Shown here: one piece after another, positions 7,003 through 48,826 of the stretch
How the letters are laid out: each line of letters begins with the position of its first letter
Position numbering within the stretch: the first letter of the stretch is position 1
Assembly: GCF_018678075.1 (NCBI RefSeq)
Contig: NZ_JAHHIR010000034.1
Span: forward strand, 1 to 48,826
From: Epibacterium ulvae
Lineage (GTDB): Bacteria; Pseudomonadota; Alphaproteobacteria; Rhodobacterales; Rhodobacteraceae
Length of the DNA stretch: 48,826 bases
Direction of reading: 5' to 3'
Translations under genes and position numbers: made by a program
Notes under the pieces: generated by a model
Seen by the model: only the letters and a program-made list of their open reading frames with translations
What the model was told of the DNA's origin: nothing
Database searches by the model: none

Positions 7003-7042
7003 GCAGGTTTTCCCTAAAAAATGGCCATTCACGCAAACAATA

Positions 7043-7078: not shown

Positions 7079-7132
7079 AAAACATGTGATCTACAGCCCT
7101 TAGACTGGCGTTCAACTCAACAGGAGAGCCAC

Positions 7133-8182: not shown

Positions 8183-8313
8183 ACCATCGCGTGTCCTTCC
8201 GTAGAAGGCGCGCGCTACCTGTCGCACACTATGCTGCCCAGGCAGCCAATCATCCAGTTGGGGAAAACATTAAAACGCCAATACAAGGCGGCCTAAACAA
8301 TTAGGACAACTGC

Positions 8314-8343
8314 AAAGGGCGGCCCCATAGGCCGCCCTTTTTC
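8314..8343 (+). terminator. Rho-independent terminator after the dehydrogenase gene
   Basis: AAAGGGCGGC (8314-8323) pairs with GCCGCCCTTT (8331-8340) across a 7-base loop, followed by further T residues. The A/T flanks allow it to serve the plus-strand dehydrogenase and also the convergent lon gene. Confidence 0.85.
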
Positions 8344-8388
8344 AATTCAGAACCACACAGCGATCCAAGATCACATGGGTACCCGCGC

Positions 8389-34269: not shown

Positions 34270-34910
34270 CATTGGATGTTGTGAACCTTGGCCTACCAAA
34301 GTCCGGCACCACCACCTTGGCCCGGGCGCTGGCAGAGGCGGGATTTACTGTCGCCGACCACCGGCTGCGCGACAAGGAAGAGGACAAGCCTGGCAAGCGG
34401 CGCATCTTTGTCGCCAATCTCCTGTATCGCGGGCTCTATGAACACGGCGATCCAATGGCCCTGCTGCCGGGTTATACCGCCATTTCCGAGATGAGCTTTA
34501 TCCACGGCAAATTCTCGGTCTGGCCACAATGTGATTTCATCCTTCTGCGTGCGTTCAAGGAACAGTTTCCGGCGCTAAAATTCATCGCCACCCGGCGTGA
34601 TGCCCGCAGCCATTCCAAATCGATCATGGCCTGGAACAACCTCGGCACCACGCGGTTGCCCAACAATCCGGTGCCCGGCCTGCCGGTTGGCTATGGCAAG
34701 TCTGAGGACCAGCAGATGCGCTGGATCGACGGCCATTATGAAGCGTTGCGACACTGGTTCCGCAACGACCCCGACTATCTGGAACTGGATGTCGCCGACG
34801 CGGATGCACAGACCAGGGTCGCCAATTTCCTCGGCCGGGACATGCCGTGGTGGGGCAAGGCCAACGAGAACCGCAAAGCAAAAGCCGCCAAAAAGGCAAG
34901 GGCCAGCTGA
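34266..34910 (+). CDS. Sulfotransferase family protein (PAPS-binding P-loop)
   Basis: Sulfotransferases move a sulfuryl group from PAPS to a hydroxyl or amine. The 214-residue protein has the PAPS 5'-phosphosulfate loop NLGLPKSGTTTLARALAEAG at residues 7-26, with the key lysine in PKSGTT. The 3'-phosphate segment is the basic FIATRRDARSHSKSIMAWNN, holding the conserved arginine and serine. It carries a Lys/Ala-rich tail. Start ATG 34266 lies inside the previous gene's end and its stop overlaps the next start (TGATG), so it is translated as part of the cluster. The glycan acceptor is not known. Confidence 0.85.
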   Translation: MTLDVVNLGLPKSGTTTLARALAEAGFTVADHRLRDKEEDKPGKRRIFVANLLYRGLYEHGDPMALLPGYTAISEMSFIHGKFSVWPQCDFILLRAFKEQFPALKFIATRRDARSHSKSIMAWNNLGTTRLPNNPVPGLPVGYGKSEDQQMRWIDGHYEALRHWFRNDPDYLELDVADADAQTRVANFLGRDMPWWGKANENRKAKAAKKARAS

Positions 34911-37249
34911 TGCGTATCCTGCTCCACATTGGCTTGCCCGAAATGGGTGCGGACCGGCTGCAACAGGTGCTGGCCGACAAACGTGACAACCTGCGCGCCA
35001 AGGGAATCTTGTTTCCAACCTCGCCGGGCAACACCAACCAGACGCGCCTTTATATGGCGGTCACCGACAGCGACCATATCGACAGCCTGCGGTGGAACCG
35101 GGGGTATTTTGCCGCCGACCGGCAAGCCACGCTGCGCTCAAAACTGGCCAAGGATCTGGCGCGCGAGATTGCGGCGGATCAGCCCAAGGCCCTGATCCTA
35201 TCGGCCAGCCAATTGGGCACCATCCACCGCAAATCCGAGCTGGAGCGGCTGCACACATTCCTGCGCCAGTTCTCGGACGACATCCAGATCGTGGCCCATA
35301 TTGATGAACCCGCCAGCGCGCTCACCCGTCATTATGGCGCGCAGGTGATGGAGGGGCGCGCAACCGCACTCACGCGCGACATTGCTCTGAGTGATGCTCC
35401 TGATTGGTGGCAGTCATGTCTGGAACAGTCCCCCACCGCGCGCCCGGCCAAAGGCCAGTTTGAAGAGATACAGGGACCGCCTTTCTGGCTCGACTACCCC
35501 CGGCTGCAACAGGTCTGGGAGGACATCTTTGGCGCAGGTTGCCTGACGTTTCGCGCCTATGATCCGGATCTGTTCTACAGCGACGCAGCTACCGAGGAGC
35601 TGCGCGCGGCTTTTGACATCGCCCCCCGCATTGGCAAGGCCACCCCGGCGAAGATGCCCGCGCTCCCCTCTGCCGCAAGCCTGACCCGCGCACGGCGCTA
35701 TAACACCGGGCTGCTCAAACTGATGGACACACGCGGACTGATGGTGCCGCGCCGTTTGTGGCGCAGCCTGCTGGAGGATCTGATGATCGACGGGGATGCG
35801 ATGTCGCCTGCCACCCTCGCACGGATCTCCAAACGGTTTGCCGAGCAGAACCGCGCGTTGCTGGAGCAGCACCCAGACCTGCCAAAAGACATGTTCAAAC
35901 CACCGCGCGCCCGCGCCTTGTGGCAGGAAGCAGACCCTGAACGTGGCTTTCGCGCCTCGCAATATCTTCTGGCCCATCTGCCCCGTATCGAAAAAGCCGC
36001 CCAGGAAGAGGCCGCCGCCAAGGATGGCTTTGCCGCGCTCAGCGCAGACGACGCCCTGCAGGATCTGTCACCCGAGGCACGCGCCCTGATGCCGCCGTTG
36101 GCCTTGCAGAATTTCGCCATGCTCAAAGGCTCGCCGTTTCGCCCCCACAACGGTGTTGGCGCAGATGACAGCGCCTTTGACGCCGCCGATTTCACGCTAC
36201 TGCCGGCGCGTAGCCTTGCCCAAGGCTCCAGTGGCAATGTAATTGTCGGCTGTATGAAGAATGAGGCGCCCTATATCCTGGAATGGGTCGCCTATCACCG
36301 CGCCATGGGGATCGACAACTTCCTGATCTACACCAATGGCTGCGAAGACGGCACGGATGAGATCCTGGGCCGGCTTCAAGAGATGGGCATCCTGCAACAT
36401 CGCAACAATGATGACTGGCGCGGCAATTCTCCGCAGCAATTTGCGCTCAACCAAGCGCTCAACGAACCGGCGATCCAAAACGCCGATTGGGTGATCCACA
36501 TCGACGTGGATGAATTTATCAATGTGCGCTGCGGCAATGGCACCTTGCAGGATTTCTTTGACCGGGTGCCAGATGCCACCAATGTCGCCATGACCTGGCG
36601 CCTGTTTGGTAACAACGGTATCACGGCGCTCGACGATCGTTTTGTGATCGACCAATTCGACCATTGCGCACCTAAATTCTGCCCCAAGCCTCATACTGTC
36701 TGGGGCTATAAAACCATGGTCAGAAACATCGGCGCCTATGGAAAATTCAGCTGCCACCGCCCCAATAAACTGGTCGAAGACATGCGCGATCAGGTCAAAT
36801 GGGTCAACGGTTCGGGCCGCGACATGACCAAGGAGGCCGCCGACAAAGGCTGGCGTTCCTCGCGCAAATCCATCGGTTATGATCTTTTGCAGCTGAACCA
36901 CTATGCGCTGCGCTCTGCTGAAAGCTTCCTGATCAAACGCCAGCGCGGACGAGCGTTGCATGTGGACCGATCTATCGGGTTGAACTACTGGATCCGCATG
37001 GATTGGAGCGATCACCGCGACACCACCATCAAACGCAACCTGCCCCGGCTGCGCGCCGAATATGACCGGCTGTTGCAAGACCGTGATTTGCAACGCTGGC
37101 ATGCCCATGGTCTGGACTGGCACCGTTCCAAGGCGCAGGCCTTGCACGGCCAACCGGAATTTGCAGAGCTCTATCAACAAGCTCTCAAAGTGAAACTAAA
37201 CAGCGTCGAACGGGTAGCCTATGCGCTGGCCCTGGATATGGAGAGCTGA
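34910..37249 (+). CDS. Two-domain fusion: sulfotransferase-like N-terminus and GT2-like C-terminus
   Basis: The 779-residue protein joins two modules. Residues 1-300 resemble a sulfotransferase: LLHIGLPEMGADRLQQVL aligns with the PAPS loop HIGxPKTGTTxLQ, but the lysine and threonine are missing (EMGA), so PAPS binding is doubtful. RHYGAQVMEG keeps part of the 3'-phosphate region. Residues 300-440 are a helical linker. Residues 440-779 match the glycosyltransferase-like family (NVIVGCMKNEAPYILEWV, FLIYTNGCEDGTDE, IHIDVDEFINV, LQLNHYALRSAESFLIKRQRG). ATG 34910 overlaps the upstream stop; it sits centrally in the five-gene cluster. The dead sulfotransferase domain may serve in acceptor binding. 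Confidence 0.85.
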   Translation: MRILLHIGLPEMGADRLQQVLADKRDNLRAKGILFPTSPGNTNQTRLYMAVTDSDHIDSLRWNRGYFAADRQATLRSKLAKDLAREIAADQPKALILSASQLGTIHRKSELERLHTFLRQFSDDIQIVAHIDEPASALTRHYGAQVMEGRATALTRDIALSDAPDWWQSCLEQSPTARPAKGQFEEIQGPPFWLDYPRLQQVWEDIFGAGCLTFRAYDPDLFYSDAATEELRAAFDIAPRIGKATPAKMPALPSAASLTRARRYNTGLLKLMDTRGLMVPRRLWRSLLEDLMIDGDAMSPATLARISKRFAEQNRALLEQHPDLPKDMFKPPRARALWQEADPERGFRASQYLLAHLPRIEKAAQEEAAAKDGFAALSADDALQDLSPEARALMPPLALQNFAMLKGSPFRPHNGVGADDSAFDAADFTLLPARSLAQGSSGNVIVGCMKNEAPYILEWVAYHRAMGIDNFLIYTNGCEDGTDEILGRLQEMGILQHRNNDDWRGNSPQQFALNQALNEPAIQNADWVIHIDVDEFINVRCGNGTLQDFFDRVPDATNVAMTWRLFGNNGITALDDRFVIDQFDHCAPKFCPKPHTVWGYKTMVRNIGAYGKFSCHRPNKLVEDMRDQVKWVNGSGRDMTKEAADKGWRSSRKSIGYDLLQLNHYALRSAESFLIKRQRGRALHVDRSIGLNYWIRMDWSDHRDTTIKRNLPRLRAEYDRLLQDRDLQRWHAHGLDWHRSKAQALHGQPEFAELYQQALKVKLNSVERVAYALALDMES

Positions 37250-37252
37250 CCG

Positions 37253-37942
37253 ATGAACGACCTCTCAAACAGCAACCGGGTGCTGCGCAGCCGTGGAATG
37301 AAGTTCCCGCTGGACACCTCGGTCCTGCCGCAACGCATTCGCACCCTGCTGCGCACCGAAGCCTATGAGGCCAAGGAAGCAACCGCGATCGAAAAACTGG
37401 TGCGCAAGGGCGATGTGGTCATGGAGCTGGGCGGCGGCATCGGCTTTATGTCCACCCTTGTGGCCACCAAAACCCGCGCCAAATCGGTGCATGCGTTTGA
37501 GGCCAACCCCCAGCTGATCCCTTATATCAAGCAGGTCCATGCGATAAACAAAGCCAAAAAGGCCGAAGTCACCCATGCGGTTCTGGGCGCTCAGGCCGGC
37601 GAAGCCACGTTTTATGTGCGCCCCAATTTCCTCGCCTCCTCCCTAGCTCCCATGGAAGACGACACCGATGTGACCGCGGTCACGGTGCCCGCGCTGGATG
37701 TCAACGCGGTGATTGCCGACCTGAAACCCTCGGTTCTGATCTGCGACATCGAAGGGGCCGAGGTTGATCTGTTGCCGCAAATGGATCTGACCGGCCTGCG
37801 CGCGGTCGTGATCGAAACTCACCCCCAATGGATCGGCAAAGAGGGCATTCGCAAGGTCTTTCGCTGCCTGGACGACGCAGGTCTGGTCTTTTTTCCGCGC
37901 TGGTCTCATGGCAAAGTGGCCGTATTCCGCTCTGATTGGTGA
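37253..37942 (+). CDS. FkbM family SAM-dependent methyltransferase
   Basis: The 229-residue protein has motif I VMELGGGIGFMST (SAM binding), the acid in HAFEANPQLI, and ICDIEGAEVDLL, the FkbM DxEGxE motif. FkbM enzymes often O-methylate sugars, so it fits with the surrounding glycosyltransferase and sulfotransferase genes. It starts three bases after the fusion gene stop, and the next gene starts three bases after its own stop. No membrane segment is visible. Confidence 0.9.
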   Translation: MNDLSNSNRVLRSRGMKFPLDTSVLPQRIRTLLRTEAYEAKEATAIEKLVRKGDVVMELGGGIGFMSTLVATKTRAKSVHAFEANPQLIPYIKQVHAINKAKKAEVTHAVLGAQAGEATFYVRPNFLASSLAPMEDDTDVTAVTVPALDVNAVIADLKPSVLICDIEGAEVDLLPQMDLTGLRAVVIETHPQWIGKEGIRKVFRCLDDAGLVFFPRWSHGKVAVFRSDW

Positions 37943-37945
37943 TCC

Positions 37946-39010
37946 ATGCGTTTTCTGGCCATACTTACCGTGCGCAACGAAGGCGCGTTTCTGTTGGAAT
38001 GGCTTGCCCATCATCGTGCGATCGGCTTCACGAATTTTCTTGTCTTTTCAAATAACTGCCAGGATGGCACCGATAAAATCCTCGACCGTCTGGATGAGTC
38101 TGGCCTGATCACCCATGTGCGAAATGATGGACCTTACGACAAATCCGGCATTCAATTCACCGCGCTAAAGACGGCCGACAAACACTCTCTGGTGAAAGAG
38201 GCCGACTGGATTTTGTCCCTCGACGTGGATGAATTTGTCAATATTCACACCGGCGACGGGCAGCTGGCCGACCTGCTGCGCACCCTGCCCGACGCCGATG
38301 CGATCACCCTGACGTGGCGTCTGTTTGGCAATGGCGATCAGGTCCGCTATTCGACCGATCCGGTAACCGAGACCTTTACCCGTTGCGCTCCAGCCGTGAT
38401 CAATTGGCCCTGGCGCGCCGCCATGTTCAAAACGCTCTATCGCAACGATGGCACCTACCGCAAAACCGGCGTCCACCGCCCGCGCAGTGTCAAGGATGAC
38501 GACCAGCTAGAGACTTACCGCTGGTTTGACTGCGAAGGCCGCGAGCTGGGCCGCCAATTCAAGACCAAGCGGCTGTTTTCCAACTACGGCCAGTCCAATT
38601 TCAAATACGCCCAGCTCAACCACTATGCCCTTGGCGCGATGGAGAGCTTTGTGCTCAAGGCCGACCGGGGGCGTGCGGTGCATTCCGACCAGATGCTGGA
38701 TGTGGATTATTGGGTCGAGCGCAATTTCAACATGGACAGTGACACCTCGATTGCCCGCTACACACCCATGCGCGACGCGCTGATGGCCGAGATGTTGGAA
38801 GACAAAAAACTGCAGCGCCTGCACGAAAAGGCTACCGCATGGCGTCACGCACGGTTCCGTCAGGTGATGCAGGAAGAACCCTTTCGCGCGCTTTTTGCCC
38901 GCCTGATGATGACGCCCCCGTCACGCTCCATCAACACCACCACCGCGCGCACCCTCTCGGGCTTCGCCGCGATGGGGCGGCGCAAACTGGCACCCGAGCC
39001 TAAGCGATAA
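37946..39010 (+). CDS. Glycosyltransferase family 2-like protein (Glyco_tranf_2_4 type), gene 2
   Basis: The 354-residue protein starts MRFLAILTVRNEGAFLLEWL and has FLVFSNNCQDGTDKILDR, LSLDVDEFVNIHTGDG, an HRPRSVKDD segment and LNHYALGAMESFVLKADRGR, parallel to the other two GT-like proteins. The length and order match the C-terminal half of 34910-37249 more closely than 33223-34269. It closes the cluster. The end lies 26 bases before a dead IS5 remnant, which may mark the cluster's old right boundary. Donor and acceptor sugars cannot be read from the sequence. Confidence 0.85.
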   Translation: MRFLAILTVRNEGAFLLEWLAHHRAIGFTNFLVFSNNCQDGTDKILDRLDESGLITHVRNDGPYDKSGIQFTALKTADKHSLVKEADWILSLDVDEFVNIHTGDGQLADLLRTLPDADAITLTWRLFGNGDQVRYSTDPVTETFTRCAPAVINWPWRAAMFKTLYRNDGTYRKTGVHRPRSVKDDDQLETYRWFDCEGRELGRQFKTKRLFSNYGQSNFKYAQLNHYALGAMESFVLKADRGRAVHSDQMLDVDYWVERNFNMDSDTSIARYTPMRDALMAEMLEDKKLQRLHEKATAWRHARFRQVMQEEPFRALFARLMMTPPSRSINTTTARTLSGFAAMGRRKLAPEPKR

Positions 39011-39036: not shown

Positions 39037-39718
39037 GGCTTTGTCGCACAAATCGGTTGAGGGGATTCAAGTTGTGAAACCAGCATGATAGCTGAAGGCA
39101 TGAGCAGCTGGGCCCCAACGAAGTACAAGACCACAAATTGGCCGTCTTACAATGACAGTTTGAAGCTACGCGGATCGCTGTCGATTTGGTTTGACCCAGC
39201 GATGGCCTGGGTGCCACCGCCAAGCGGCAAGCGCGGTCGATAACAGAGTTTCAGCGACGCGGCGATAGACGTGCCTGACTTTGAAGGTCCTGTTCGGGCT
39301 CCCATTACGGCAGACCACTGGCTTTGTGCAAAGCCTGCTGGCTGGTCGGACTGGACTGGGCGGCACCTGATTTTAGCACCCTTTGCCGTCCCATTGCCCG
39401 ACAGGCGATTGCGTAGAAATCTGCCGAGGGGCGAGGTCACCACCAGCGATATTGGTGATGCGCCGAAGCTGCCAGAATTGCTGGATCAAATTCCACCCGA
39501 TCAGAACATCGGCAGTGTCACAGCAGATGGGGCGTATGACACTCGAAAATTTCACGAGGCGATTGCCGCCCGCAATGCCCATGCTGTCAGCCCACCGCGC
39601 AAGAATGCCAAGCCATGGAAGCCCACAAGCGCCGGCCTCCGCCCGAAACGAGGCCGTAGGATAAGTCCCTCTGGGAAAAGGCGACGTCCGACCCTAACCC
39701 GATTTGTGCAACGAAGCC
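39037..39718 (+). mobile_element. IS5-family insertion sequence remnant (682 bp, internally deleted)
   Basis: The ends are a near-perfect inverted repeat. GGCTTTGTCGCACAAATCGG (39037-39056) and the complement of 39699-39718 match at 18 of 20 positions. They also match the end of the element entering from 48462. Between them lies a degraded transposase. A full IS of this group is roughly 1 kb or a little more, so several hundred bases are missing. It separates the glycan cluster from the kinase-transport module. Confidence 0.8.
39100..39680 (+). pseudogene. IS5-family transposase, dead
   Basis: The frame starts at ATG 39100 and is recognisable (KYKTTNWPSYN, LRGSLSIWFDPAMAW). TAA at 39241-39243 falls where glutamine is expected after KRGR. 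A frameshift follows, and the segment from LLRL..RRQ to the first catalytic aspartate (about 150 residues) is missing. EVTTSDIGDA, TADGAYDTRKFHEAIAARNA and PPRKNAKPW then follow, carrying the second aspartate region. Near the end ARNEAVG is joined directly to a stop, whereas the intact copy at 48515-48826 has about 80 residues between the ARNEAV and TEPVG segments. This looks like a deletion between short repeats. Confidence 0.75.
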
Positions 39719-39883
39719 CTCTGGCATCACAAATTCATCGTTTGGATGAATTGCCCATCTTTAAGCGCTGTTTCAATTGCTCCATTCCGCCAGAGGCAGC
39801 CCGATCGGGGTCTACATTATCGCAGGCCATGAATTTGGAGCGGCCACCCCTCTTTTCAAAACGGGCAGCCGCAAGCAATCAGT
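39719..39883. other. Short spacer between IS remnant and dhaL
   Basis: No gene is supported. AATTCATC (39732-39739) and GATGAATT (39745-39752) form a hairpin without a T-run, which might end the dhaKL transcript weakly. The rest shows nothing recognisable. Confidence 0.4.
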
Positions 39884-40486
39884 TTATGCGAAGCAATCTA
39901 TCAAGGACTTGATCGCAACCATGCCTGGATCGTCCATACCTTTGGTCTTGTCACCAAAGATCCTCGCACGACCAATTTTGCAGGCTTTGTCGTGGAACTC
40001 TTCCAATGCGCTGTCCGCGGCGGCTTTGGCTGCTTCAAGAGCTGCTTCAGCGGTCGCCTTTCCGGCCGTCGACGCAATGACAGCAGTCAGAGAGTCCAGC
40101 ATGGTCTTGTCACCGATACTCGCGCCACCACGGGCGATCATCGCGTCCAAAGCAGCTTGCAATAGATCTGGAAGCCTCTCCCAATCAATCTCGTTCTCGC
40201 CTTTGGTCTGTTTTGCGACAGCCATCAACGAGATCCCCATCAATGTGCCAAAAGACGAACCAGATACTTTGGTCATGGCCTTGGCACATTCCATGCACGC
40301 CATTCCAAAGTCATCCGGCAGATCATTGGCGATTGATGCGATGTTGTTGAACCCATTCACCATGGTCACGCCAAGATCACCATCTCCCAAACGACCATCA
40401 AGCTCGTTCAGGTGTGCCCCCATTGGGTCAACCTGGGCGGTAATCTTTTCGATACCGGTGCGCAGAGTTGCTGTTGTTAGTGCCAC
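39884..40486 (-). CDS. dhaL: DhaL-like kinase subunit (ADP/ATP-binding)
   Basis: The 200-residue protein matches the nucleotide-binding subunit of dihydroxyacetone kinases. It has ELDGRLGDGDLGVTMVNGF near residue 28-46 with the Mg-binding aspartates, SGSSFGTLMGISL and MLDSLTAVI, ending in a GRARIFGDKTKGMDDPGMVA segment. It starts two bases after the dhaK stop, so the pair is expressed together. Whether the phosphate comes from ATP or from a PTS protein (DhaM) is not settled; no dhaM is present in the window. Confidence 0.9.
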   Translation of the reverse strand: MALTTATLRTGIEKITAQVDPMGAHLNELDGRLGDGDLGVTMVNGFNNIASIANDLPDDFGMACMECAKAMTKVSGSSFGTLMGISLMAVAKQTKGENEIDWERLPDLLQAALDAMIARGGASIGDKTMLDSLTAVIASTAGKATAEAALEAAKAAADSALEEFHDKACKIGRARIFGDKTKGMDDPGMVAIKSLIDCFA

Positions 40487-40488
40487 GT

Positions 40489-41484
40489 TTATTTCCCCCA
40501 GAATGGATTGTTGGCTGGTGCGGCCAGAAGCTGCTCCAGTTCGTCGTCAAGTTTCATCAGCGAGATCGAGGCACCGGCCATTTCCATCGACGTGGCATAG
40601 TTGCCAACCAACGGATGCGCGATTTCGATGCCCTTGTCTGACAGAATGCGGTTTACAGCCCGGAACAGGATGTAAAGTTCTTCGGCAGGCGTTGCGCCCA
40701 GACCGTTGACCAAAACAGACACGCGGTCGCCTTTTGAAAGGTCCAGCTCGTCGGTCAGCTTGGCCAGTAGCTCAGCTGCCAATTCATCAGCGGGCTTGTT
40801 CTTGCCGCGCCAAACGCCTGGCTCGCCGTGAATGCCCATACCGATTTCGATTTCATCGTCGGCAATTTCAAAGGTGACTTTGCCGGCCTGTGGCACAATG
40901 CAAGATCCCAGCGCCACACCCATGGTACGTGTGTTCAGGCGCGCGCGATCTGCGCATACGTAAACTTCGTCCAACGATTTACCAGCCTGTGCAGCGGCGC
41001 CTGCGACTTTGACCACATAGACCAGACCCGCAACGCCGCGGCGCTTCTCGATCTCATCAACACCTGCGCTGGCAACATCATCATTGACGATGATCTGCTT
41101 GGCAGTGATGTCTTCCATGTCTGCGAATTCGCAGGCCATGGCAAAGTTCATCTTGTCGCCACCATAGTTGCCCACAACGCAAAGCACGCCTTGCCCTGTG
41201 TCTGCAGATTTGATGGCCTCTAGCATCGGGTTCATGTCTGGCGATGCAAACACATCCCCAACAGCACATGCATCCAGCAAACCGTCACCAACGTAACCAG
41301 CGAAGATCGGCAGGTGGCCGAAACCACCGCCCGATACAACACCAACGCTGTCAGCGCTGGCCGTGGGCTTGCGCAACAACCGACGGGTTTCACCATCGAT
41401 ACGGAAAACGTCTGGATGCGCGGCCTCTAGGCCTTCGAGTGTTTCGTCAACGTAGTTGACGGCATCATTCATAATTTTCTTCAT
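40489..41484 (-). CDS. dhaK: DhaK-like kinase subunit (hydroxyketone/sugar-binding)
   Basis: DhaK binds the keto substrate covalently as a hemiaminal. The 331 residues keep the substrate histidine (GMGIHGEPG near 218), the base aspartate (GNYGGDKMNF) and the histidine in VVSGGGFGHLP. E. coli DhaK has SGGGSGHEP, so serine and glutamate are changed to phenylalanine and leucine, suggesting a substrate other than dihydroxyacetone, such as a tetrulose or other keto-sugar. It is divergent from the IclR regulator at 41684, with TTAGTTT repeats in the gap. A distance of only two bases separates it from dhaL. Confidence 0.88.
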   Translation of the reverse strand: MKKIMNDAVNYVDETLEGLEAAHPDVFRIDGETRRLLRKPTASADSVGVVSGGGFGHLPIFAGYVGDGLLDACAVGDVFASPDMNPMLEAIKSADTGQGVLCVVGNYGGDKMNFAMACEFADMEDITAKQIIVNDDVASAGVDEIEKRRGVAGLVYVVKVAGAAAQAGKSLDEVYVCADRARLNTRTMGVALGSCIVPQAGKVTFEIADDEIEIGMGIHGEPGVWRGKNKPADELAAELLAKLTDELDLSKGDRVSVLVNGLGATPAEELYILFRAVNRILSDKGIEIAHPLVGNYATSMEMAGASISLMKLDDELEQLLAAPANNPFWGK

Positions 41485-41566
41485 CGCAGTTCCTCTTCAG
41501 GCTTTGCAGCGTCTAAGTCGTCTGACCCAGTTCGACAGTCTGCCCTTGTCTTTCGGTTGCATCATG

Positions 41567-41616
41567 TTAGTTTCATATCTCAAAACTAAAGTACCACATT
41601 ATGGATAATTTAGTTT
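41567..41616. promoter_or_regulatory. TTAGTTT repeats between dhaK and iclR-type gene (putative operator)
   Basis: TTAGTTT occurs at 41567-41573, inverted as AAACTAA at 41583-41589, and again at 41610-41616. The first two form an inverted repeat with a 9-base spacer. They lie in the AT-rich 200-base gap between divergent dhaK and the regulator gene, so they are good candidates for its binding site. Confidence 0.5.
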
Positions 41617-41683
41617 TTTTTACATGTCAATCGGACGGTCCCGCCTTCTTGATGTAACGTTGGAAATGAAGTAGGACAGGAAA

Positions 41684-42466
41684 ATGCAAAGCTCTATTGT
41701 CACTAAGTTATTGACCCTCCTCACAGTTGTCAGCGAAACTCGAAAACCGCTTACGTTCTCTGAATTGGTGACCAAAAGCGGGCTAAACAAAAGCACCATC
41801 CATAGACTTTTGAACATCAGCACCGAAGAGCGCCTGATAACTTTTGACGAGCATCGTAAGGTCTATTTTGTTGGTCCTAAGATCTTTGATCTCGTACGAA
41901 ATGCTTACAGCGGCTATGATATTCAGGCCGTCGCACTGGACGAGATGATGCGCCTGCACGCCCTTTTCGAAAGCAACGTGACCATCGGCCTGCCCAATGG
42001 AAGAGAGGTTGTTTATCTGAGGGTTCTGGAGTCTCGCCGTTCAATGGGCCCCGTTCAACGCCCTGGCATGCGTGAACCCATTCATTGCTCAGCCTCCGGC
42101 AAAGCACTCTTAGCTTTTATGCCAGACAAGATGATCTTATCCAAGCTGGACGGCTACAAATTTGAGAAGTTCACAGACCAGACCATCCAAGACACAGAAT
42201 CATTTTTGAACGCTTTGGAGGAAGTCCGCGAACTGGGATATGCACGCAATAACCGCGAAGAATATGAACACTTCATGGGCATTTCAGCGCCGATCTTCAA
42301 CTATATGAGCGAGCCTATCGCGGTGATCAACATATGGACCGTTGATTCCCTGCACTCGATTGACGAGCTTACATCGTGGTCGGGAGAACTTCGGGCCTCA
42401 GCAGAACGCGTGACCAGCCTGATAGGCGGGACCGCGCCGGATCTTGCGACCCTACGCAGTCAGTAG
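41684..42466 (+). CDS. IclR family transcriptional regulator
   Basis: The 260-residue protein has an N-terminal winged helix (VTKLLTLLTVVSETRKPLTFSEL.. NKSTIHRLLNI) and a C-terminal effector-binding domain with RPGMREPIHCSASGKALLAF and the typical LGYARNNREEYEHFMGISAPIF. It is divergent from dhaK and convergent with the cupin gene (4-base gap), so it probably controls the dhaKL genes and possibly the whole module. ATG 41684 is preceded by AGGACAGG. The effector is unknown. Confidence 0.93.
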   Translation: MQSSIVTKLLTLLTVVSETRKPLTFSELVTKSGLNKSTIHRLLNISTEERLITFDEHRKVYFVGPKIFDLVRNAYSGYDIQAVALDEMMRLHALFESNVTIGLPNGREVVYLRVLESRRSMGPVQRPGMREPIHCSASGKALLAFMPDKMILSKLDGYKFEKFTDQTIQDTESFLNALEEVRELGYARNNREEYEHFMGISAPIFNYMSEPIAVINIWTVDSLHSIDELTSWSGELRASAERVTSLIGGTAPDLATLRSQ

Positions 42467-42471
42467 CTTAA

Positions 42472-42846
42472 TTATTTGCCGTCATGCGGTGGCAGGTTGT
42501 CTACCGACACAATAACAAAGTGCTTTTTGATATAGTTATCGACGGTCCATTCTGTTTCCAGACCCGCGTTCATGACAAATGCGTCGCCCGCAGCAACGTC
42601 GTAAGAGTTGCCATCGCTGGTTTTGATCGTCGCGCTACCTTGAAGAATATGGCAGAATTCAACAATACCATCCATTACGGCTGTGAATTTGCCAGCGGTG
42701 CTGTCCCAAATACCTGACCGAATAGCCTGCTGATGGCCATCATACATCATCCAGGAGAACTGCTTGGGGTTTCCTTCAAGGATGTCGTCCTGAATGTTCT
42801 TTTCAACGGCATCAGGATTCTGGTCCACGAATTTAATGAAGCTCAT
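42472..42846 (-). CDS. Cupin domain protein
   Basis: The 124-residue protein has a single cupin fold: DGIVEFCHILQGSATIKTSDGN (motif 1 region, here quoted in part as VEFCHILQGSATI) and GDAFVMNAGLETEWTVDN (motif 2). It resembles the cupin_3/DUF861 group. The usual metal-binding histidines are reduced to one near the first motif, so an enzymatic role is uncertain; it may bind a small ligand. Upstream lies a terminator for the oxidoreductase gene, so it may have its own promoter or be read through. Confidence 0.8.
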   Translation of the reverse strand: MSFIKFVDQNPDAVEKNIQDDILEGNPKQFSWMMYDGHQQAIRSGIWDSTAGKFTAVMDGIVEFCHILQGSATIKTSDGNSYDVAAGDAFVMNAGLETEWTVDNYIKKHFVIVSVDNLPPHDGK

Positions 42847-42869
42847 TTGTCTGTCCTTGTTAGCATAGA

Positions 42870-42908
42870 AAAAAACGTGCTGGCCCAGGGGAGCGAAACC
42901 AGCACGCT
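42870..42908 (-). terminator. Rho-independent terminator after the FAD oxidoreductase gene
   Basis: On the minus strand CGTGCTGG (complement of 42899-42906) pairs with CCAGCACG (complement of 42876-42883), followed by a run of seven T (42869-42875 region). It ends the transport-oxidoreductase transcript before the cupin gene. Confidence 0.82.
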
Positions 42909-42973
42909 GTCGCCTTCCGTCATTGAGGGCGACCAGTTACGGGCGAACAAAAGAAATGTTCACACCGCGGGGA

Positions 42974-44287
42974 TCAAAGCCGATCAAAAATTGTATCCAG
43001 ATTATCGCGGAACGACATGGCTGGAGCACCCAATGGCAAGAGCTTTGTGGTGCCCCAATGCCAAGGGATCGGGCTGACAGGTGTGACGGGGAACGGCAGC
43101 GTGTCGTTCGCGGCGCCCATGGCCTTTCTAGCCAACGCGCGCCCCATAACAGATGTCATTGCGATGCCTCGGCCACTGAAACCAATCGCAGCCAATACGC
43201 CTGGCGCGGGTTCGTGCAAATGCGGCATCATTTCGGTGGTTACGGCAATACGCCCTGCCCATGCGGTTTCAATCTTGGACTGCTGCAATTGCGGGAAGAC
43301 CCGATGCAAACCATTGCGAAGACGTCCCAAACCGCCAAGTGCTGCGGCTTGATCAGTGCTGCCAACACATCCAAAGATAAGACGGCGATCCCGATCATAG
43401 CGCGCGAAATAGATAGCGCGCCGTGTGTCCGCAATTGTAACAGCATTTGGCAGAACTTGTTGCTGGAGTTCCGCTGACAACGGTTCTGTCGCAAGCGCAA
43501 TACTGACCATAGGAAAGAAGGTCTGCTGCAGGCCTGGCCACAGTCCATTGGTGTGCGCATTGGTGGTCAGGATAACCTGCTTTGCAATAACACGTCCTTG
43601 TGGAGTGTTCAGATGCCAGTGGTCACCCACGCGTTTCATGCCTGTCACTTTGCTGTTCTCAAACAGCTGCACCCCTAGGCGTTCTGCCGCGCGGGCATAA
43701 CCATAGGTCAGCGACAGTGGCTGCACGTGGCCACCTTTCTTGTGGAACAGGGAAAACCCGTATTCCTTTGACCCACTCATCTTTTGGGTCTGCTCTCTGT
43801 CTAGAAAATCAATGGAAGCGCCGGCTTTGTTCCAGGCTTCTCCCAGGGAAATCAGGCGTTTTTTCGCAGATTTACAATGCGCGGCTTGAACCCAACCGTT
43901 TTGCTCGGCGTCACAATCGACATCGTATTTGCCAATGTCACGGAACAACGCATCCGCAGAGCCCAATGTTGTCTCAATCAACCTGTTCGCCTGCGGCTCG
44001 CCAAATTTCTTGACCAGCTCGTCAGGCGTTGCACGCCAAATAGGGTTACATTGGCCGCCGCTGCGACCCGACGCGCCCCAGCCAATTTCCATTGCGTCCA
44101 GCACGGCAACGGTGGCCCCTTCTTCAGCAAGTCCAATCGCCGTGCGGCACCCCGTCAGACCGCCCCCGACGATTGCAAAGTCAACTTCGATATCTTCGCT
44201 CAGAACCAGAGCCTTCGGTCGTTCAGCAGCGGTTCTGCGCCAATGGACTTCGTCAATGCTCTGGGGGTTGAAGCTGTTGATTGTCAT
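42974..44287 (-). CDS. FAD-dependent amine/glycine oxidase-like oxidoreductase (DAO family)
   Basis: The 437-residue protein belongs to the DAO superfamily (DadA, PuuB, glycine oxidase). FAD binds at DFAIVGGGLTGCRTAIGLAEEG near residues 35-56 (GxGxxG variant GGGLTG), with GWGASGRSGGQC following, a PuuB-like segment. The C-terminal FAD loop has GFSGRGIAMTSVMGRALA. These enzymes oxidise secondary or primary amines, releasing ammonia and an aldehyde or keto acid. It follows the transport genes, 149 bases after the permease, separated by a strong hairpin. The transported solute could therefore be an amine; this is inference. Confidence 0.88.
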   Translation of the reverse strand: MTINSFNPQSIDEVHWRRTAAERPKALVLSEDIEVDFAIVGGGLTGCRTAIGLAEEGATVAVLDAMEIGWGASGRSGGQCNPIWRATPDELVKKFGEPQANRLIETTLGSADALFRDIGKYDVDCDAEQNGWVQAAHCKSAKKRLISLGEAWNKAGASIDFLDREQTQKMSGSKEYGFSLFHKKGGHVQPLSLTYGYARAAERLGVQLFENSKVTGMKRVGDHWHLNTPQGRVIAKQVILTTNAHTNGLWPGLQQTFFPMVSIALATEPLSAELQQQVLPNAVTIADTRRAIYFARYDRDRRLIFGCVGSTDQAAALGGLGRLRNGLHRVFPQLQQSKIETAWAGRIAVTTEMMPHLHEPAPGVLAAIGFSGRGIAMTSVMGRALARKAMGAANDTLPFPVTPVSPIPWHWGTTKLLPLGAPAMSFRDNLDTIFDRL

Positions 44288-44392
44288 TCTGTGCTCATAC
44301 GGTTTCGCAACATCTCAATGTGCTCTTTGGTTGCTATTTGGGTCGCCGAAAACCACGCCGACCCGACGGGCACCCACCGAAGCGGGTGCAAT

Positions 44393-44432
44393 TGACTTCT
44401 GGCGCGCGGAGGAGGGAGCGCGCCAGAAGTCA
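44393..44432 (-). promoter_or_regulatory. 15-bp perfect RNA hairpin between permease and oxidoreductase genes
   Basis: TGACTTCTGGCGCGC (44393-44407) pairs exactly with GCGCGCCAGAAGTCA (44418-44432) around a 10-base purine-rich loop. No T-run follows on the minus strand, so it is more likely a processing or stability element, or a partial attenuator, than a full terminator. It starts just after the permease stop codon. Confidence 0.6.
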
Positions 44433-44436
44433 GGGC

Positions 44437-45702
44437 TTAGCTCTTGCCTTTCCAAGGCACGAGATAACGTTCAGCCCAGCGCATCATCATATCGATGCCG
44501 AACCCGATCACACCAATCAGGACGATGCCCATGATGACGATATCAGTGTTCTGGAACTTCGACGCGGTCATGATCATCATGCCAGCCCCTTGTTCCGCAG
44601 CGACAAGTTCAGCCGCGACAACGGTGCCCCAGCACACACCCATCGCAACGCGCGCACCGGTAAAGATTTCGGGTAACGAGTTGGGAATGATGACATGGCG
44701 CATGATTTGCCACTTGCTGGCGCCCAATGAATAGGCTGCATGAACCTTGCTGATGTTAACACCAGACACACCTGACCGCGCAGCAATGGCCATGATCCAC
44801 AGGGCTGCAAGGAACAGCAGGATGATCTTACCCGCCTCGCCGATACCGGCCCAGATGATGACAAGAGGGATCAATGCCAGCGGAGGAACAGGACGCATGA
44901 ATTCAACAATCGGATCGAACCAACCGCGAAACCAGTTGCTAAGTCCCATTGCATATCCAAGAGGAATGCCAACCACTGCGCCAAGGATAAAGCCCAGAAT
45001 AACCCGGTACAACGAGAAGCCCAGATGCTCCCAGATTGAGAAGTTCCGAAAGCCTTCTTTGAAGATCTTTACCGTACGGGTCCACACAGTCTCGGGTGAG
45101 GGCAAGTACAGCGGCTCCATTTGAAGACCGCGCGAAGGTTCAAAGTTTGGGGTGCCTTTGTCAGACAAGGTCACAGAGCCAAAGTCGAAATCGACAGTGC
45201 CCCCTGGAGTAATAGGTTGACCGTTGATGGCAACAATTTTTGCACCCTCTTTCCGGGTCGTCTCGTCGTTCTTGTCCCAAGGGATCAGCACGGACCGCCA
45301 CTGCGCAACAACAGCCGCGTCGTTCTTGGCAAACCCATCGCCCGCAGGGACTTCGGCTGTTTCGGCGGGTGTCTCGCGGGGGTGAACCACAACACGCACC
45401 AAGGCATCATCCGTCGCACCATCAGCCTTTTGCGCGGTGTAGGTGAACTCAGCCGTTCCTTCGAAAGGCGCAGGGGCATGAAGGGGTTTCGGGACGATAA
45501 CCGACCCGGTGAAGATCCCCCAAATCAGGAAAATCGTGGCGATAGAGATAACACCGGCTATCCGGTTGGGGCGCACAGCACTTTCATCTCCGAAGGTGAC
45601 AGTTTTCAGCGAGGTGAAATCGCGGATGCCTGCGCCTTGCAGTTTCGTCACCAAGTAGAAAGAGACAACAAAAACAGCAACGTAAATTAGGAATGGAGTC
45701 AT
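44437..45702 (-). CDS. ABC transporter permease, TauC/SsuC family with inserted domain
   Basis: The 421-residue protein is far longer than usual TauC (about 270). Two helices (about residues 3-21 and 49-69) are followed by a hydrophilic 125-residue region (about 75-200, with AEFTYTAQKADG, VRVVVHPRE and VAINGQPITPGGTVDF), predicted to be beta-rich. The normal permease core then starts at LPSPETVW and includes the EAA loop (AAYSLGASKWQIMRHVIIPNSLPEI) that docks to the ATPase. The insert is probably periplasmic or at the membrane face, and might replace or aid ligand recognition. An ATGA overlap joins it to the ATPase gene. Confidence 0.88.
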   Translation of the reverse strand: MTPFLIYVAVFVVSFYLVTKLQGAGIRDFTSLKTVTFGDESAVRPNRIAGVISIATIFLIWGIFTGSVIVPKPLHAPAPFEGTAEFTYTAQKADGATDDALVRVVVHPRETPAETAEVPAGDGFAKNDAAVVAQWRSVLIPWDKNDETTRKEGAKIVAINGQPITPGGTVDFDFGSVTLSDKGTPNFEPSRGLQMEPLYLPSPETVWTRTVKIFKEGFRNFSIWEHLGFSLYRVILGFILGAVVGIPLGYAMGLSNWFRGWFDPIVEFMRPVPPLALIPLVIIWAGIGEAGKIILLFLAALWIMAIAARSGVSGVNISKVHAAYSLGASKWQIMRHVIIPNSLPEIFTGARVAMGVCWGTVVAAELVAAEQGAGMMIMTASKFQNTDIVIMGIVLIGVIGFGIDMMMRWAERYLVPWKGKS

Positions 45703-46505
45703 TTTGAATCTCCCGAACGTCCCATGATTTCTTCTTCCATGTCCCAGATCATGCTGAGAATTTCTTCGCGCTTCACACCAAAGTCGGGGTGTTTCTTGAC
45801 CTCACGTAGGTCGGCCTCAACGCCAAGATCTGCAAAGGGAAGACGGTATTCAGTGTGGATACGTCCTGGCCGTGGCGCCATAACCAGCAGGCGTTCCCCC
45901 AGCAGCAGGGCTTCTTCAACAGAGTGGGTGATCAAAATGATGGTCTTGCCGGTTTCTTTCCAAAGCTTCAAAACCAGCGACTGCATCTTTTCGCGCGTCA
46001 ACGCGTCCAGCGCACCAAGCGGTTCGTCCATCAAGATCACATCCGGGTGGTTCGCAAGACAGCGGGCCAAGGCCACACGTTGCTGCATACCGCCGGACAA
46101 TTCGTAGATCGCTTTGTCCTTGAAGTCTTGCAGGCCTACGATTTCAAGAAGATGATCAACCTCATCTTTGTATTCCGCTTCCCGCTGGCCCTGCATACGC
46201 GGGCCAAAACTGATGTTGTCGCGCACAGACATCCATTCAAACAGCGCACCCTTTTGGAAGACCATTCCTCGGTCTGCGCTAGGCCCGTGAACAGCTCTGC
46301 CGTTCAAAGTGATTTCACCACCACTGGGCGCCAGAAAGCCCGCAACAATATTGAGGAGTGTCGTTTTACCGCACCCAGAAGGACCCAGTACGCTTAGCAA
46401 TTCCCCAGATTTGAGGTCAAGAGAGACGTCCTGCAACGCTTGAACTGCACCACCGCTGGGCAGATCAAAGCTCATGGATAGGTTTTGGATCGAAAGTCCA
46501 GTCAT
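45699..46505 (-). CDS. ABC transporter ATPase, TauB/SsuB family
   Basis: The 268-residue protein has Walker A GPSGCGKTTLLN, Q-loop VFQKGALFEW, signature LSGGMQQRVALARCLA, Walker B VILMDEPLGALD and switch histidine ILITHSVEEALLLGERL. The size, sequence pattern and gene partners fit nitrate/sulfonate/bicarbonate-type importers. A short acidic C-terminal extension ends in EEEIMGRSGDSK. It is the second gene of the operon, 94 bases after the binding protein. Confidence 0.93.
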   Translation of the reverse strand: MTGLSIQNLSMSFDLPSGGAVQALQDVSLDLKSGELLSVLGPSGCGKTTLLNIVAGFLAPSGGEITLNGRAVHGPSADRGMVFQKGALFEWMSVRDNISFGPRMQGQREAEYKDEVDHLLEIVGLQDFKDKAIYELSGGMQQRVALARCLANHPDVILMDEPLGALDALTREKMQSLVLKLWKETGKTIILITHSVEEALLLGERLLVMAPRPGRIHTEYRLPFADLGVEADLREVKKHPDFGVKREEILSMIWDMEEEIMGRSGDSK

Positions 46506-46566
46506 TCCCCACCTATTATATTTATTTTAAAAAAAGGAGCCATGCCGCCGCGGGGCAGGCAAAAGT

Positions 46567-46590
46567 GGCGCGAGGGAGAGCCCTCGCGCC
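46567..46590 (-). promoter_or_regulatory. Hairpin after the binding-protein gene
   Basis: GGCGCGAGGG (46567-46576) pairs exactly with CCCTCGCGCC (46581-46590) around a 4-base loop, ten bases after the binding-protein stop codon, without a strong T-run. Such hairpins commonly protect the upstream mRNA, so that more binding protein than ATPase and permease is made. Confidence 0.7.
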
Positions 46591-46599
46591 TGGTCGGGC

Positions 46600-47592
46600 T
46601 TACATGTCCTGAACGGCCTTCAAAGGATCTGTGTTGACTGCGCTGTTGTAACTTTCCAAAGAATAGTCCATCGAGCCGGCTTCCACGAACACTTCGGCAA
46701 CACCCTTCATGAAGGTTTGCACGTTGCCACCCAGCCACTTCTCAGACAGCTGCTCTTCGACCGAAGGCATTTTCATGGTTGCGATGGCAGATTTCGCGGC
46801 ATCCAGGTCCAGGCCCGCTTCCTGAGCAATCACGCTCAGCAACTCGTCGCTGCCATCAGCGTACCATTTTTTGTTTGCTTCCGCGGTAACCGCCAAGAAC
46901 TTCGCAACAACGTCGCCATTTTCAGCGATGTAGGATGCAGGTGCCGATGTTACGTCAAACACCAGAATGCCCAGCTCTTCTTTCTCATCACCGGTCAGCA
47001 GAACGTTGCCGTGTTCCTTCATACGGGAAAGGCCACCGCCGAAACCGCATGCAAAGTCCACAGCACCTTGGCTAAGCGCGACTGCGCCTTCTGGTGGCGC
47101 CATGTCCACAACCTGCAGTGAATCAACTGGAATGCCGAAATGGCTCATTTGACGCAGGAAGCCGTAGTGCGCGGCGGTTCCCAATGGAACAGCGACTTTC
47201 TTACCGGCCAGCTCGCCAGCGGAGTCTTTGTCAATTTCCAGTCCAGAGGAAACAACACAGTTATCATTGTCAGAATAGCTCACTGCGATGTCGACAACCT
47301 GAAGATCTTGACCGCCCGAAGCTGCAACAACGAAAGGAGGCAGGCCTTGCGAAACTGCGATTTGAACGTCACCTGACGCCATCGCTGCGCTCATTGCGGT
47401 GCCGGTTTCGAAAGAAACCCAGTTCACCTTCATGCCCAGTGCCTCGTCGTAAGCGCCTGTCGCTTTGGCTGCCATCATGGGCATTGGCCATTCCAAGAAG
47501 TACGCAACGGTCAGTTCTTCCGCCATTGCAGCTGCCCCGGAGACGGCTGCAATCGCTGCAGCCAAAATTGTCGTTGATGTCTTTTTGATCAT
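46600..47592 (-). CDS. ABC transporter periplasmic binding protein, TauA/NMT1 family
   Basis: The 330 residues begin with a signal peptide (TSTTILAAAIAAVSGAAAM-AEE). The body follows the NMT1/TauA pattern: LTVAYFLEWPMPMMAAKATG, VNWVSFETGTAMSAAMASGD, QIAVSQGLPPFVVAASGG, KKVAVPLGTAAHYGFLRQ and VDMAPPEGAVALSQGAVDFACGFGG. The family covers taurine, sulfonates, thiamine precursors and amines. Several ligand-pocket motifs of true TauA were not recognisable, so the substrate is open. It is the first gene of the transport operon; upstream 500 bases are free of genes. Confidence 0.9.
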   Translation of the reverse strand: MIKKTSTTILAAAIAAVSGAAAMAEELTVAYFLEWPMPMMAAKATGAYDEALGMKVNWVSFETGTAMSAAMASGDVQIAVSQGLPPFVVAASGGQDLQVVDIAVSYSDNDNCVVSSGLEIDKDSAGELAGKKVAVPLGTAAHYGFLRQMSHFGIPVDSLQVVDMAPPEGAVALSQGAVDFACGFGGGLSRMKEHGNVLLTGDEKEELGILVFDVTSAPASYIAENGDVVAKFLAVTAEANKKWYADGSDELLSVIAQEAGLDLDAAKSAIATMKMPSVEEQLSEKWLGGNVQTFMKGVAEVFVEAGSMDYSLESYNSAVNTDPLKAVQDM

Positions 47593-48125
47593 TTTGCTTT
47601 CCCTGTTGTACTAGTTCCGCATTGCAAAACTTTTATTTTACAATGCGAGAATAGCGGGAGCATTTCATCTTCGTCAATAATAAAAACAAGGCCTAAAGCT
47701 CCGCGCAACGCTGCACGCTTATTCTTAAAGCGCCGCGATCCTAAACCTCTGGAACTATTTATGTTTCCCCTACCCTCTGTCGACGTTCAGAGAAACGTTA
47801 GGTAAAATCATATCCCCCTTGTTTGAGGTATGAGGAGGTAAAACGCCTATAGGGAGAAACATGCCACGTTCAAGTCAGCGATTCTTGGGCCCAAATTGCG
47901 CGGAATTCCGTACCCGCGACCATCGGCCACCATAGAACCATTTCAGATAAAGATCGGTGAATCACTTTTAATATAATGAATTCTTACACTTAACCCAAAA
48001 TGGTGCCCTACCGCCTAAGTACAGGCCACGCTCTATTTGTTTTTCATGATTGAACTTACATTTTGCATTGTACAGCTACGATCAGATTGCAAACTCACCC
48101 CGGCCCAGAGGAGACAACTGGAACG
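47593..48125. other. 533-base region upstream of the transport operon
   Basis: No convincing gene. A short frame at 47862-47934 (24 codons after GGGAGA, ending TAG) has a good ribosome binding site but no recognisable product, and may be a leader or a remnant. AT-rich segments near 47620-47680 could hold the promoter of the transport operon. A CRP/IclR-type palindrome was not found by eye. Confidence 0.4.
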
Positions 48126-48461
48126 GTGAAGTCTTCGGAACCCAATATTGAACAAGTACCGGCGCGCCGATCAAAGGCTTGGAACGTTCATCCAAAGCTG
48201 CCGATCGACATGTAACCGGTCTTTGACGTACCGCCAAAACCAAAGGCGTCGCTTAAATGGCTGCTCGGCACATGGCTCAAGTTCTCGCCGCCTATGAACC
48301 ACCCAATTTTTGTACTGATCATGGTCTACTTCCTGATGCCAAGCCCCGAAGCGATGCAGCTTTTCTCGGCAGATTGGATGCTCAAAATCGCAGCAATCCT
48401 TTTCGGTTCTATCATCCTGCTCGGGACAGAGCTCCATTTGTACCTTTATGTACCTGCCGCA
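48126..48461 (+). pseudogene. Sterol desaturase/fatty acid hydroxylase-like gene, 5' part, nonsense and IS-truncated
   Basis: From GTG 48126 the frame reads SEPNIEQVPARRSKAWN and VHPKLPIDM, is stopped by TAA at 48213-48215, then continues in the same frame as PVFDVPPKPKASLKWLLGTW and MNHPIFVLIMVYFLM, with further membrane helices to LHLYLYVPAA. The pattern (an HP.LPI segment followed by PVFDxPP, then membrane helices) resembles the N-terminus of roseobacter sterol desaturase-family proteins, whose catalytic histidine boxes lie further on and are lost here. At 48462 an IS5 end begins. Two independent lesions, a stop and an insertion, make it non-functional. Family recognition is moderate. Confidence 0.55.
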
Positions 48462-48826
48462 GCTTTGTTGCACAAATCGGGGTTTGAACGGATTTCCCCT
48501 TTCCCCGGACGGATTTATCCTACGGGCTCTGTGATAGGTATGCCAAGAACGGTGTAGCGGTTGAGCACCGCGATCCGGACTTGGAGCTCGGCAACTTGCC
48601 GGTCGAAGTCCCGCGCCATGAGGCTTTGGCCGAGTAGTTTGACGCAGTGCATGTTCGTCTCTGCTTGGCTTCTGCGGTGATATCCGGTCAACATTCGCCA
48701 GAGTGCTCGTCCTAGATATTTGCAGGCTCTTACGGCTTCGTTTCGCGCGATAGCTCCTGCCGTGCTTGACTTCCAAAGTTGGGCATTCTTGCGTGGTGCG
48801 ATGATGGCTGCGGCTCCCCGAGCGGG
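48462..48826 (-). mobile_element. IS5-family insertion sequence, right part outside window
   Basis: The element starts with GCTTTGTTGCACAAATCGG at 48462-48480, the same inverted repeat as in the remnant at 39037-39718. The transposase gene lies on the minus strand, so this copy is oriented opposite to that remnant. Its other end and any target duplication are outside the window. Confidence 0.85.
48515..48826 (-). CDS. IS5-family transposase, C-terminal 103 residues
   Basis: The visible part reads APRKNAQLWKSSTAGAIARNE, then GYHRRSQAETNMHCVKLLGQ with the glutamate of the DDE catalytic triad, then LMARDFDRQVAELQVRIAVLN and a terminal TEPVG. The frame is intact as far as it is seen, so this copy may be active. 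The N-terminal two-thirds, with the two aspartates, is beyond the window. It matches the family of the dead copy at 39100 and supplies the segment deleted there. Confidence 0.85.
   Translation of the reverse strand, partial: PARGAAAIIAPRKNAQLWKSSTAGAIARNEAVRACKYLGRALWRMLTGYHRRSQAETNMHCVKLLGQSLMARDFDRQVAELQVRIAVLNRYTVLGIPITEPVG

Follow-up and report, generated by a model that had tools for sequence, protein, structure and literature searches.

A TauABC-like transporter, a cupin-partnered oxidase and a dihydroxyacetone-type kinase in one conserved gene set predicted to act on a taurine-like compound

Introduction

Among described systems, the closest to the gene set analysed here are bacterial taurine operons. 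On pSymB of Sinorhizobium meliloti the genes run tauA-B-C, then a small NTF2/SnoaL-like protein, a DAO-family flavoenzyme, xsc and pta. In that species tauC and tauY are required for growth on taurine (PMC4254191). The tauABCXY operon is also known from Paracoccus. The window considered here, by which we mean the whole stretch of 48,826 nucleotides, is the complete contig C58 (NZ_JAHHIR010000034.1) of a 4.09-Mb draft genome (107 contigs, 97% complete) from the Rhodobacteraceae, and it carries a TauABC-like transporter, an oxidase and a small cupin together with a two-subunit dihydroxyacetone (DHA)-type kinase and an IclR-family regulator. The initial annotation of this sequence had not recognised the combination from known taurine, ectoine or dihydroxyacetone pathways. 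The layout is nevertheless a recognisable variant of the tauA-B-C-oxidase-small protein arrangement, with a different oxidase and a different small partner.

Algae produce aminosulfonates, among them cysteinolate and substituted taurines. Our literature searches, which covered sources available in part, returned no account of bacterial genes through which these compounds are used, and papers naming both 'dihydroxyacetone kinase' and 'tauABC' dealt, by their titles, with unrelated subjects. We propose that the set probably serves to take up a sulfur compound resembling taurine, to oxidise the amine of that compound and to phosphorylate a product with three carbons. The same succession of import, amine oxidation and phosphorylation had been suggested in the initial annotation and is reached again here; gene content, conservation and regulation are read from the sequence, while the substrate and the chemistry of the steps are inferred.

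Results

The eight genes previously named are all present as open reading frames between 39884 and 47592: dhaL, dhaK, a divergent iclR and then, on the minus strand, cupin, oxidase, tauC, tauB and tauA, transcribed in the order tauA-B-C-oxidase-cupin.

39884..40486, minus strand: dhaL, Dak2-domain phosphotransfer subunit, GDGD motif present
40489..41484, minus strand: dhaK, Dak1-domain substrate subunit with GGGFGHLP; His56, Asp109 and His218 kept
41684..42466, plus strand: iclR-family regulator, probable regulator of the set
42472..42846, minus strand: small Cupin_3 (EutQ-like) protein
42974..44287, minus strand: DAO-family flavin-dependent (FAD) amine oxidase/dehydrogenase; closest among named families to L-pipecolate oxidase AmaA, with a score under the cut-off
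44437..45702, minus strand: tauC-like permease with extended N-terminus
45699..46505, minus strand: tauB-like ATPase
46600..47592, minus strand: tauA-like binding protein; Asp205 kept, Phe at the Trp176 position

TauA, TauB and TauC are the best NCBIfam models for the three transporter proteins, each scoring under the equivalog cut-off, and the transporter is 58–85% identical to those of canonical taurine loci. The kinase subunits also fall short of their NCBIfam cut-offs (DhaK 382 of 406 bits, DhaL 101.7 of 138.3), and carry the Dak1 and Dak2 domains with their catalytic residues. For the oxidase the best NCBIfam match is AmaA at 300.8 bits, half the cut-off of 600, and no lysine pathway genes lie near it; its nearest solved relatives are enzymes that oxidise glycine, sarcosine and dimethylglycine. 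Comparison with Epibacterium ulvae gave ratios of nonsynonymous to synonymous substitution of 0.043–0.093 in seven of the eight genes, the cupin yielding no value.

Despite the similar layout, the oxidase and cupin are ruled out as orthologues of TauY and TauX by identity and fold family. The oxidase is 29.3% identical to TauY over 403 residues, a relationship at the level of the superfamily only, and the cupin is an unrelated small protein (E 0.95 against the SnoaL/NTF2-like TauX). We regard the module as a new form of the taurine-type operon, in which an oxidase and cupin of their own kind and a dedicated kinase are joined in one regulon.

We analysed the conservation of the set using a profile of four oxidases in a single scan of 84,980 species genomes, keeping the best 80 of 151 relatives. 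Forty of these loci (L105–L144) form an oxidase clade with 55–91% identity to the window oxidase, the next relatives reaching at most 43%; genes were counted by clustering, and some of the 40 loci end early at contig ends. TauA is found in 29 of them, TauB in 25, an IclR protein of one of two types in 28 and the cupin in 20 (21 by tblastn); the FA_hydroxylase gene occurs in 9, the PanB-like and ferredoxin-reductase-like genes in 4 each and HpsN in 3. The corresponding figures for 40 outgroup oxidase loci (35–43% identity) are seven for TauA and one each for DhaK and, weakly, the cupin. The full set in the same order is present in L105 and L106. DhaKL of the window type accompanies nine of the 40 clade oxidases (eight plus a Psychromonas copy just beyond the L112 stretch) and its distribution requires six changes on the oxidase tree, which means that it was repeatedly gained or lost. 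L107 and L122 carry instead a one-chain DHA kinase that is unrelated and belongs to another branch; here the same activity was recruited a second time. Scattering of the genes among relatives had been named beforehand as grounds for giving up the idea of a single set. The outcome is mixed: many loci keep the oxidase next to TauA and IclR, but only nine of 40 have DhaKL, and several have another transporter in its place. Conserved together and sharing the promoter site described next, the genes form a real unit, as the initial annotation had supposed.

Searching for perfect 7-bp palindromes gave no common site; a gapped site was then noticed by eye in that output. This 30-bp site, TGCAAAACT(N)5TTTTRCAATGCGGAATA, recurs in the dhaK/iclR spacers of relatives. 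A weight matrix was built from five spacer sites only (L118, L136, L137, L139, L141), with none from the window or from tauA promoters and with omission of L105 and L106, which have a 29-base version. It was run on both strands of the window and on 200 simulated windows of the same dinucleotide make-up.

47613..47652: tauA promoter, shared regulatory site seen as a pair of overlapping matches of 27.8 and 23.4 bits
48038..48067, minus strand: third-best copy, before a hydroxylase gene remnant, 18.6 bits, reached in 4 of 200 simulations
41558..41608: weak copies in the 199-bp dhaK/iclR divergent spacer, 13.5, 13.1 and 11.4 bits

The tauA-promoter site lies 21–60 bp before tauA and provides the two best matches of the whole window; none of the 200 simulations reaches 27.8 or about 23.4 bits. 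Within 300 bp before tauA, a score of at least 17 is attained in 20 of 29 module copies (L105–L144) versus two of 18 others (L083, L087). Two oxidase-bearing loci outside both counts, L080 and L085, score 17.9 and 17.3, L080 being on one contig with L117. The dhaK/iclR spacer of E. ulvae scores 20.3 bits. On this sequence evidence the DhaKL and tauA units belong to one regulon, and the IclR protein would be the reader of the site.

The altered loop of the kinase, to which the initial annotation had drawn attention, is real and unusual and marks one clade among the DhaKs examined. Relative to E. coli numbering the window protein keeps the catalytic residues His56, Asp109 and His218 and replaces Ser54 with Phe and Glu57 with Leu; its domains would make it a dihydroxyacetone kinase, with a difference in the loop next to His56. 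The motif GGGFGH[LI]P is found in the window and in all eight oxidase-linked DhaKs of the window type that were compared, versus none of 30 other loci (GGGSGHLP or GGGSGHEP), a count that includes only motifs caught by the pattern and misses L014 and second DhaK copies without a locus. GGGFGH DhaKs form one clade comprising nine of 44 tree rows (support 100/99).

The tie between the GGGFGH loop and this oxidase is not exclusive: E. ulvae and Pelagibius also have kinases with the loop in other gene neighbourhoods. A cluster on E. ulvae contig C13 (L221, covering 52000–70000; genes at 527–10077 of it), about 43 kb from the first E. ulvae cluster on the same contig, places a GGGFGH DhaKL beside a different DAO oxidase and an OpuAC-type betaine ATP-binding cassette transporter, together with a glycerol dehydrogenase scoring over its cut-off, a short-chain dehydrogenase/reductase and an IclR gene. 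The Pelagibius cluster (L222, 10695–17999) combines GGGFGH DhaKL with a ProX-type transporter, IclR, amidohydrolase and CobW-like genes. Amine oxidation is thus seen again in the company of triose enzymes. A further Pelagibius kinase (L216, 58%) has a GGGFGH loop within different surrounding sequence. Separately, in Marinomonas phaeophyticola (L146, 12462–13992) the reading frame of a GGGFGH-type DhaK is disrupted close to the motif; SafD and Tpa-like, TauR-like and TRAP genes lie next to this DhaK.

The binding protein also belongs to a clade of its own. The TauA tree contains a 25-row clade (support 93/96) that is split from the canonical TauAs of tauABC-Tpa-TauR-Xsc loci and consists of 21 rows from module loci plus L080, L085, L083 and L095. 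Not included in the clade are L133, although it comes from a module locus, and eight rows of a distant type. Taurine contacts of E. coli TauA have been published: Asp205 holds the amine while Trp176 packs on the morpholino group, an N-substituent, of 2-(N-morpholino)ethanesulfonate (PMC6906117). We compared the pocket in hand-chosen groups of 22 module and 14 canonical TauAs, omitting L133, L083, L095 and the eight distant proteins. All 36 retain Asp205, Gly61 and Gly79. Position 176 is Trp in 13 of the 14 canonical proteins and Tyr (21) or Phe (one, that of the window) in the 22 module proteins. One locus, L109 (3116–9792), carries canonical tauABC-Tpa-TauR plus a lone module-clade TauA beside the oxidase, an arrangement in which a single TauBC might serve both binding proteins.

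We next consider the sulfonate enzymes encoded in 27 genomes, namely that of the window and 26 others with the oxidase, using a threshold of E<=1e-150 for Xsc and HpsN. Xsc is present in 24 of the 27, and Tpa also in 24 of 27 (G293, a genome of the same genus as the window, not counted). In the window genome, a draft 97% complete, there is no Xsc, either at E<=1e-150 or over the family cut-off (best match 267.9 of 676.4), and no HpsN, for which the best match is 36% identical and at the level of HisD. Plain sulfonate degradation through either enzyme was therefore rejected for this genome, neither having been found. The genome does encode two Tpa-type aminotransferases, a TauR-like regulator and a TauE-family exporter fragment. 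Since Tpa without Xsc takes the nitrogen of taurine and not its carbon, and the set is under purifying selection, a substrate with usable carbon of its own would be of benefit. The genomes that lack both Xsc and HpsN (the window's, Psychromonas and Pseudocolwellia) have DhaKL in three of three cases versus eight of the 24 with Xsc (hypergeometric 0.056), as expected if the carbon comes from the non-sulfonate half of the substrate. To deal with taurine itself these genomes have Tpa.

A 4929-base contig of the window genome (C3, L226) carries a second TauA (79% over 159 residues, truncated where the contig stops) together with a TauE-family gene, a MocR-like regulator and an aminotransferase of the Tpa type, possibly a second taurine locus without Xsc.

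We give an even chance to the view that the genes form a regulon for the breakdown of a taurine derivative that bears a C3 polyol and is not cysteinolate. The TauABC paralogue would import the derivative, the DAO-family flavoenzyme and its cupin partner would oxidise the amine, and hydrolysis of the imine would yield a triose or triose-like carbonyl, which the GGGFGH DhaKL would phosphorylate for entry into central metabolism; the IclR protein would control both transcription units. The preferred candidate is N-(2,3-dihydroxypropyl)taurine, a compound known from red algae. Oxidation of its secondary amine could release glyceraldehyde, to be used by DhaKL, and taurine, to be used by Tpa.

One competing idea is that plain taurine is the substrate, the oxidase and cupin acting as a second type of taurine dehydrogenase that forms sulfoacetaldehyde, with DhaKL as a bystander in the regulon. 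The gene order is as in the S. meliloti tauABC-X-Y-xsc-pta operon, and Xsc lies near the oxidase in L123. In the Psychromonas locus L112 the oxidase and cupin share their strand with a gene of the TauE/SafE family and, next, with SafD, which scores 826.6 bits against a cut-off of 700; DhaKL lies beyond a TRAP transporter and IclR. In Pseudocolwellia, a sister of Psychromonas, a TRAP transporter 83–91% identical and DhaKL occur in L118, and SafD, SafE-like, TauR-like and Tpa-like genes are located elsewhere. These layouts suggest that taurine catabolism and the module occupy the same cells as partly separate units. However, Tpa is already present in most module genomes, L109 and G174/L141 have a canonical taurine TauABC next to the module or in addition to it, the TauA pocket is changed, the kinase has the promoter site in common and sulfoacetaldehyde has no hydroxyl for a DHA kinase. 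We consider plain taurine unlikely on balance.

Cysteinolate (2-amino-3-hydroxypropane-1-sulfonate), a taurine whose amine carbon bears CH2OH, would be converted to 2-oxo-3-hydroxypropane-1-sulfonate, an analogue of DHA, to be phosphorylated by DhaKL or reduced to 2,3-dihydroxypropane-1-sulfonate. It fits a DHA-like kinase, and we know of no route for a phosphorylated sulfonate, which counts against it. Cysteinolate is described as abundant in marine microalgae (PMC8703288), and its ketone is reported in phytoplankton (PMC11131964). The neighbourhoods agree to some extent, with HpsN near three of the 40 loci, ComDE in L141 and HpsO/HpsP-like genes in L128, and HpsN is encoded in 23 of 27 module genomes versus 143 of 295 in the family, a comparison that is confounded by marine lineage. 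Yet the three genomes without HpsN and Xsc retain the genes, and cysteinolate would leave them with no known onward route. On these grounds cysteinolate is a rather unlikely substrate.

N-methylated taurines would call for demethylation by the oxidase, with DhaKL and the PanB-like enzyme in one-carbon assimilation. Relatives of the oxidase act on sarcosine and dimethylglycine, and a PanB-like gene (PF02548) adjoins four of the 40 loci, but among the neighbourhoods read we recognised neither a dihydroxyacetone synthase nor a formaldehyde gene, and we regard this route as very improbable.

Several observations weigh against our preferred reading of a C3-polyol-bearing derivative. No DhaKL or one-chain kinase lies near 29 of the 40 oxidases (31 if one-chain kinases are not counted), so the kinase is not essential to the oxidase. 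The spacer copies of the promoter site in the window are weak, a score of 13.5 being reached in 82 of 200 simulations and not significant alone. Gln30 and Thr132 of the E. coli pocket already differ in both TauA groups, which makes the pocket mapping partial. The position of the L112 oxidase and cupin in line with SafD and a TauE/SafE-family gene and the Xsc gene near the oxidase in L123 both suit plain taurine, and the HpsN genes near three loci suit C3 sulfonates. Finally, glyceryltaurine was not named in the literature searched.

The module is flanked by the following features.

39037..39719, plus strand (strand of best plasmid match): decayed IS5-family element, left flank, outside the module, 80.4% in three pieces
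48102..48461, plus strand: truncated start of an FA_hydroxylase-family gene with an in-frame stop, interrupted by the right IS
48462..48826, plus strand (strand of best plasmid match): IS5-family element, right flank, outside the module, running off the contig end

Two related IS5-family sequences in opposite orientation had been reported around the genes, and this is correct: arms of 68 nt (39650–39717 and 48462–48529) are inverted and 79% complementary, and IS5-family transposases are annotated beneath the plasmid-record matches of both flanks. Their interpretation as the boundary of a mobile module does not hold up. The left and right sequences are 79% identical over 68 nt and 71% over 77 nt, i.e. 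related but distinct elements, and they are decayed. The segment 39891–48457 aligns in one piece (8580 bp) to E. ulvae U95 at 84.9%, and Cognatishimia sp. 1_MG-2023 matches over 7839 bp with 77.7% identity; for the rpoB region, compared over 5612 bp, identity to E. ulvae is 85.5%. Because similarity of the segment to E. ulvae is no higher than that of the rpoB region, a recent transfer is unsupported; an old one is conceivable from the sequence. An IS5 composite transposon was rejected as a candidate, since we found neither near-identical copies nor a segment unlike its host. A chance neighbourhood, or a composite transposon carried in by the two elements, could point to the inverted sequences on both sides and to G293, the one same-genus genome examined, which has no DhaK at E<=1e-60. 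The co-linearity with E. ulvae, the unlike and decayed elements and the conservation of the gene order in L105 and L106, which lack these elements, leave this explanation only the slimmest of chances, and the IS boundary appears incidental.

The hydroxylase remnant is a ninth gene that the initial annotation overlooked. It is 83% identical over 120 residues to an E. ulvae gene (PF04116 there), which in that genome is followed by PanB-like and ferredoxin-reductase-like genes. This trio (the PanB-like gene being PF02548) adjoins the module in four of the 40 loci (L105 at 3318–6239, L137, L139 and L141), and in the window only the broken start of its first gene survives. Elsewhere in the window, positions 1–126 match L106 5873–5996 (82.5%), just upstream of the L106 tauA, probably a shared mobile-element end, and glycosyltransferase-like genes at 34847–39010 (PF13704 and PF01697 in 37946–39010) adjoin the left IS.

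Discussion

Our boldest proposal is a tentative one, which we think somewhat more apt to fail than to hold: the genes may encode an undescribed pathway of algae-associated bacteria that uses N-glyceryltaurine or cysteinolate by means of a paralogous TauA, a DAO oxidase with a cupin as its partner and a dedicated kinase of the DHA type whose substrate loop is remodelled, under one IclR operator. Because the importer, oxidase, kinase loop and promoter site are tied together at one locus, the question of the substrate is testable, and GGGFGH DhaK, the 30-bp site and TauA position 176 provide markers for the pathway in other genomes.

The system most similar in layout is tauABCXY of S. meliloti, which has TauA, TauB and TauC followed by a small protein and a DAO flavoenzyme, as here. 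It differs in having TauR, xsc and pta, whereas the module has IclR in place of TauR, DhaKL added and no xsc or pta. The tauABC-Tpa-TauR-Xsc loci of the Rhodobacteraceae are closest in the transporter itself, their TauABC being 58–85% identical to that of the module, which is distinguished by the absence of Tpa, TauR and Xsc, by a TauA of another clade with Trp176 changed and by a different promoter site. The sulfoacetate-excreting SafD/SafE taurine pathway touches the module in Psychromonas, where SafD and a TauE-family gene are in line with the oxidase (L112); the window genome has no SafD at E<=1e-120. With AmaA and the glycine, sarcosine and dimethylglycine oxidases the module oxidase has the DAO fold family in common. 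Finally, DhaKL(M) systems share with the module kinase the Dak1 and Dak2 domains and the His/Asp/His residues; no DhaM was seen in the module, and its kinase is set apart by scores below the NCBIfam DhaK and DhaL cut-offs and by the GGGFGH[LI]P loop.

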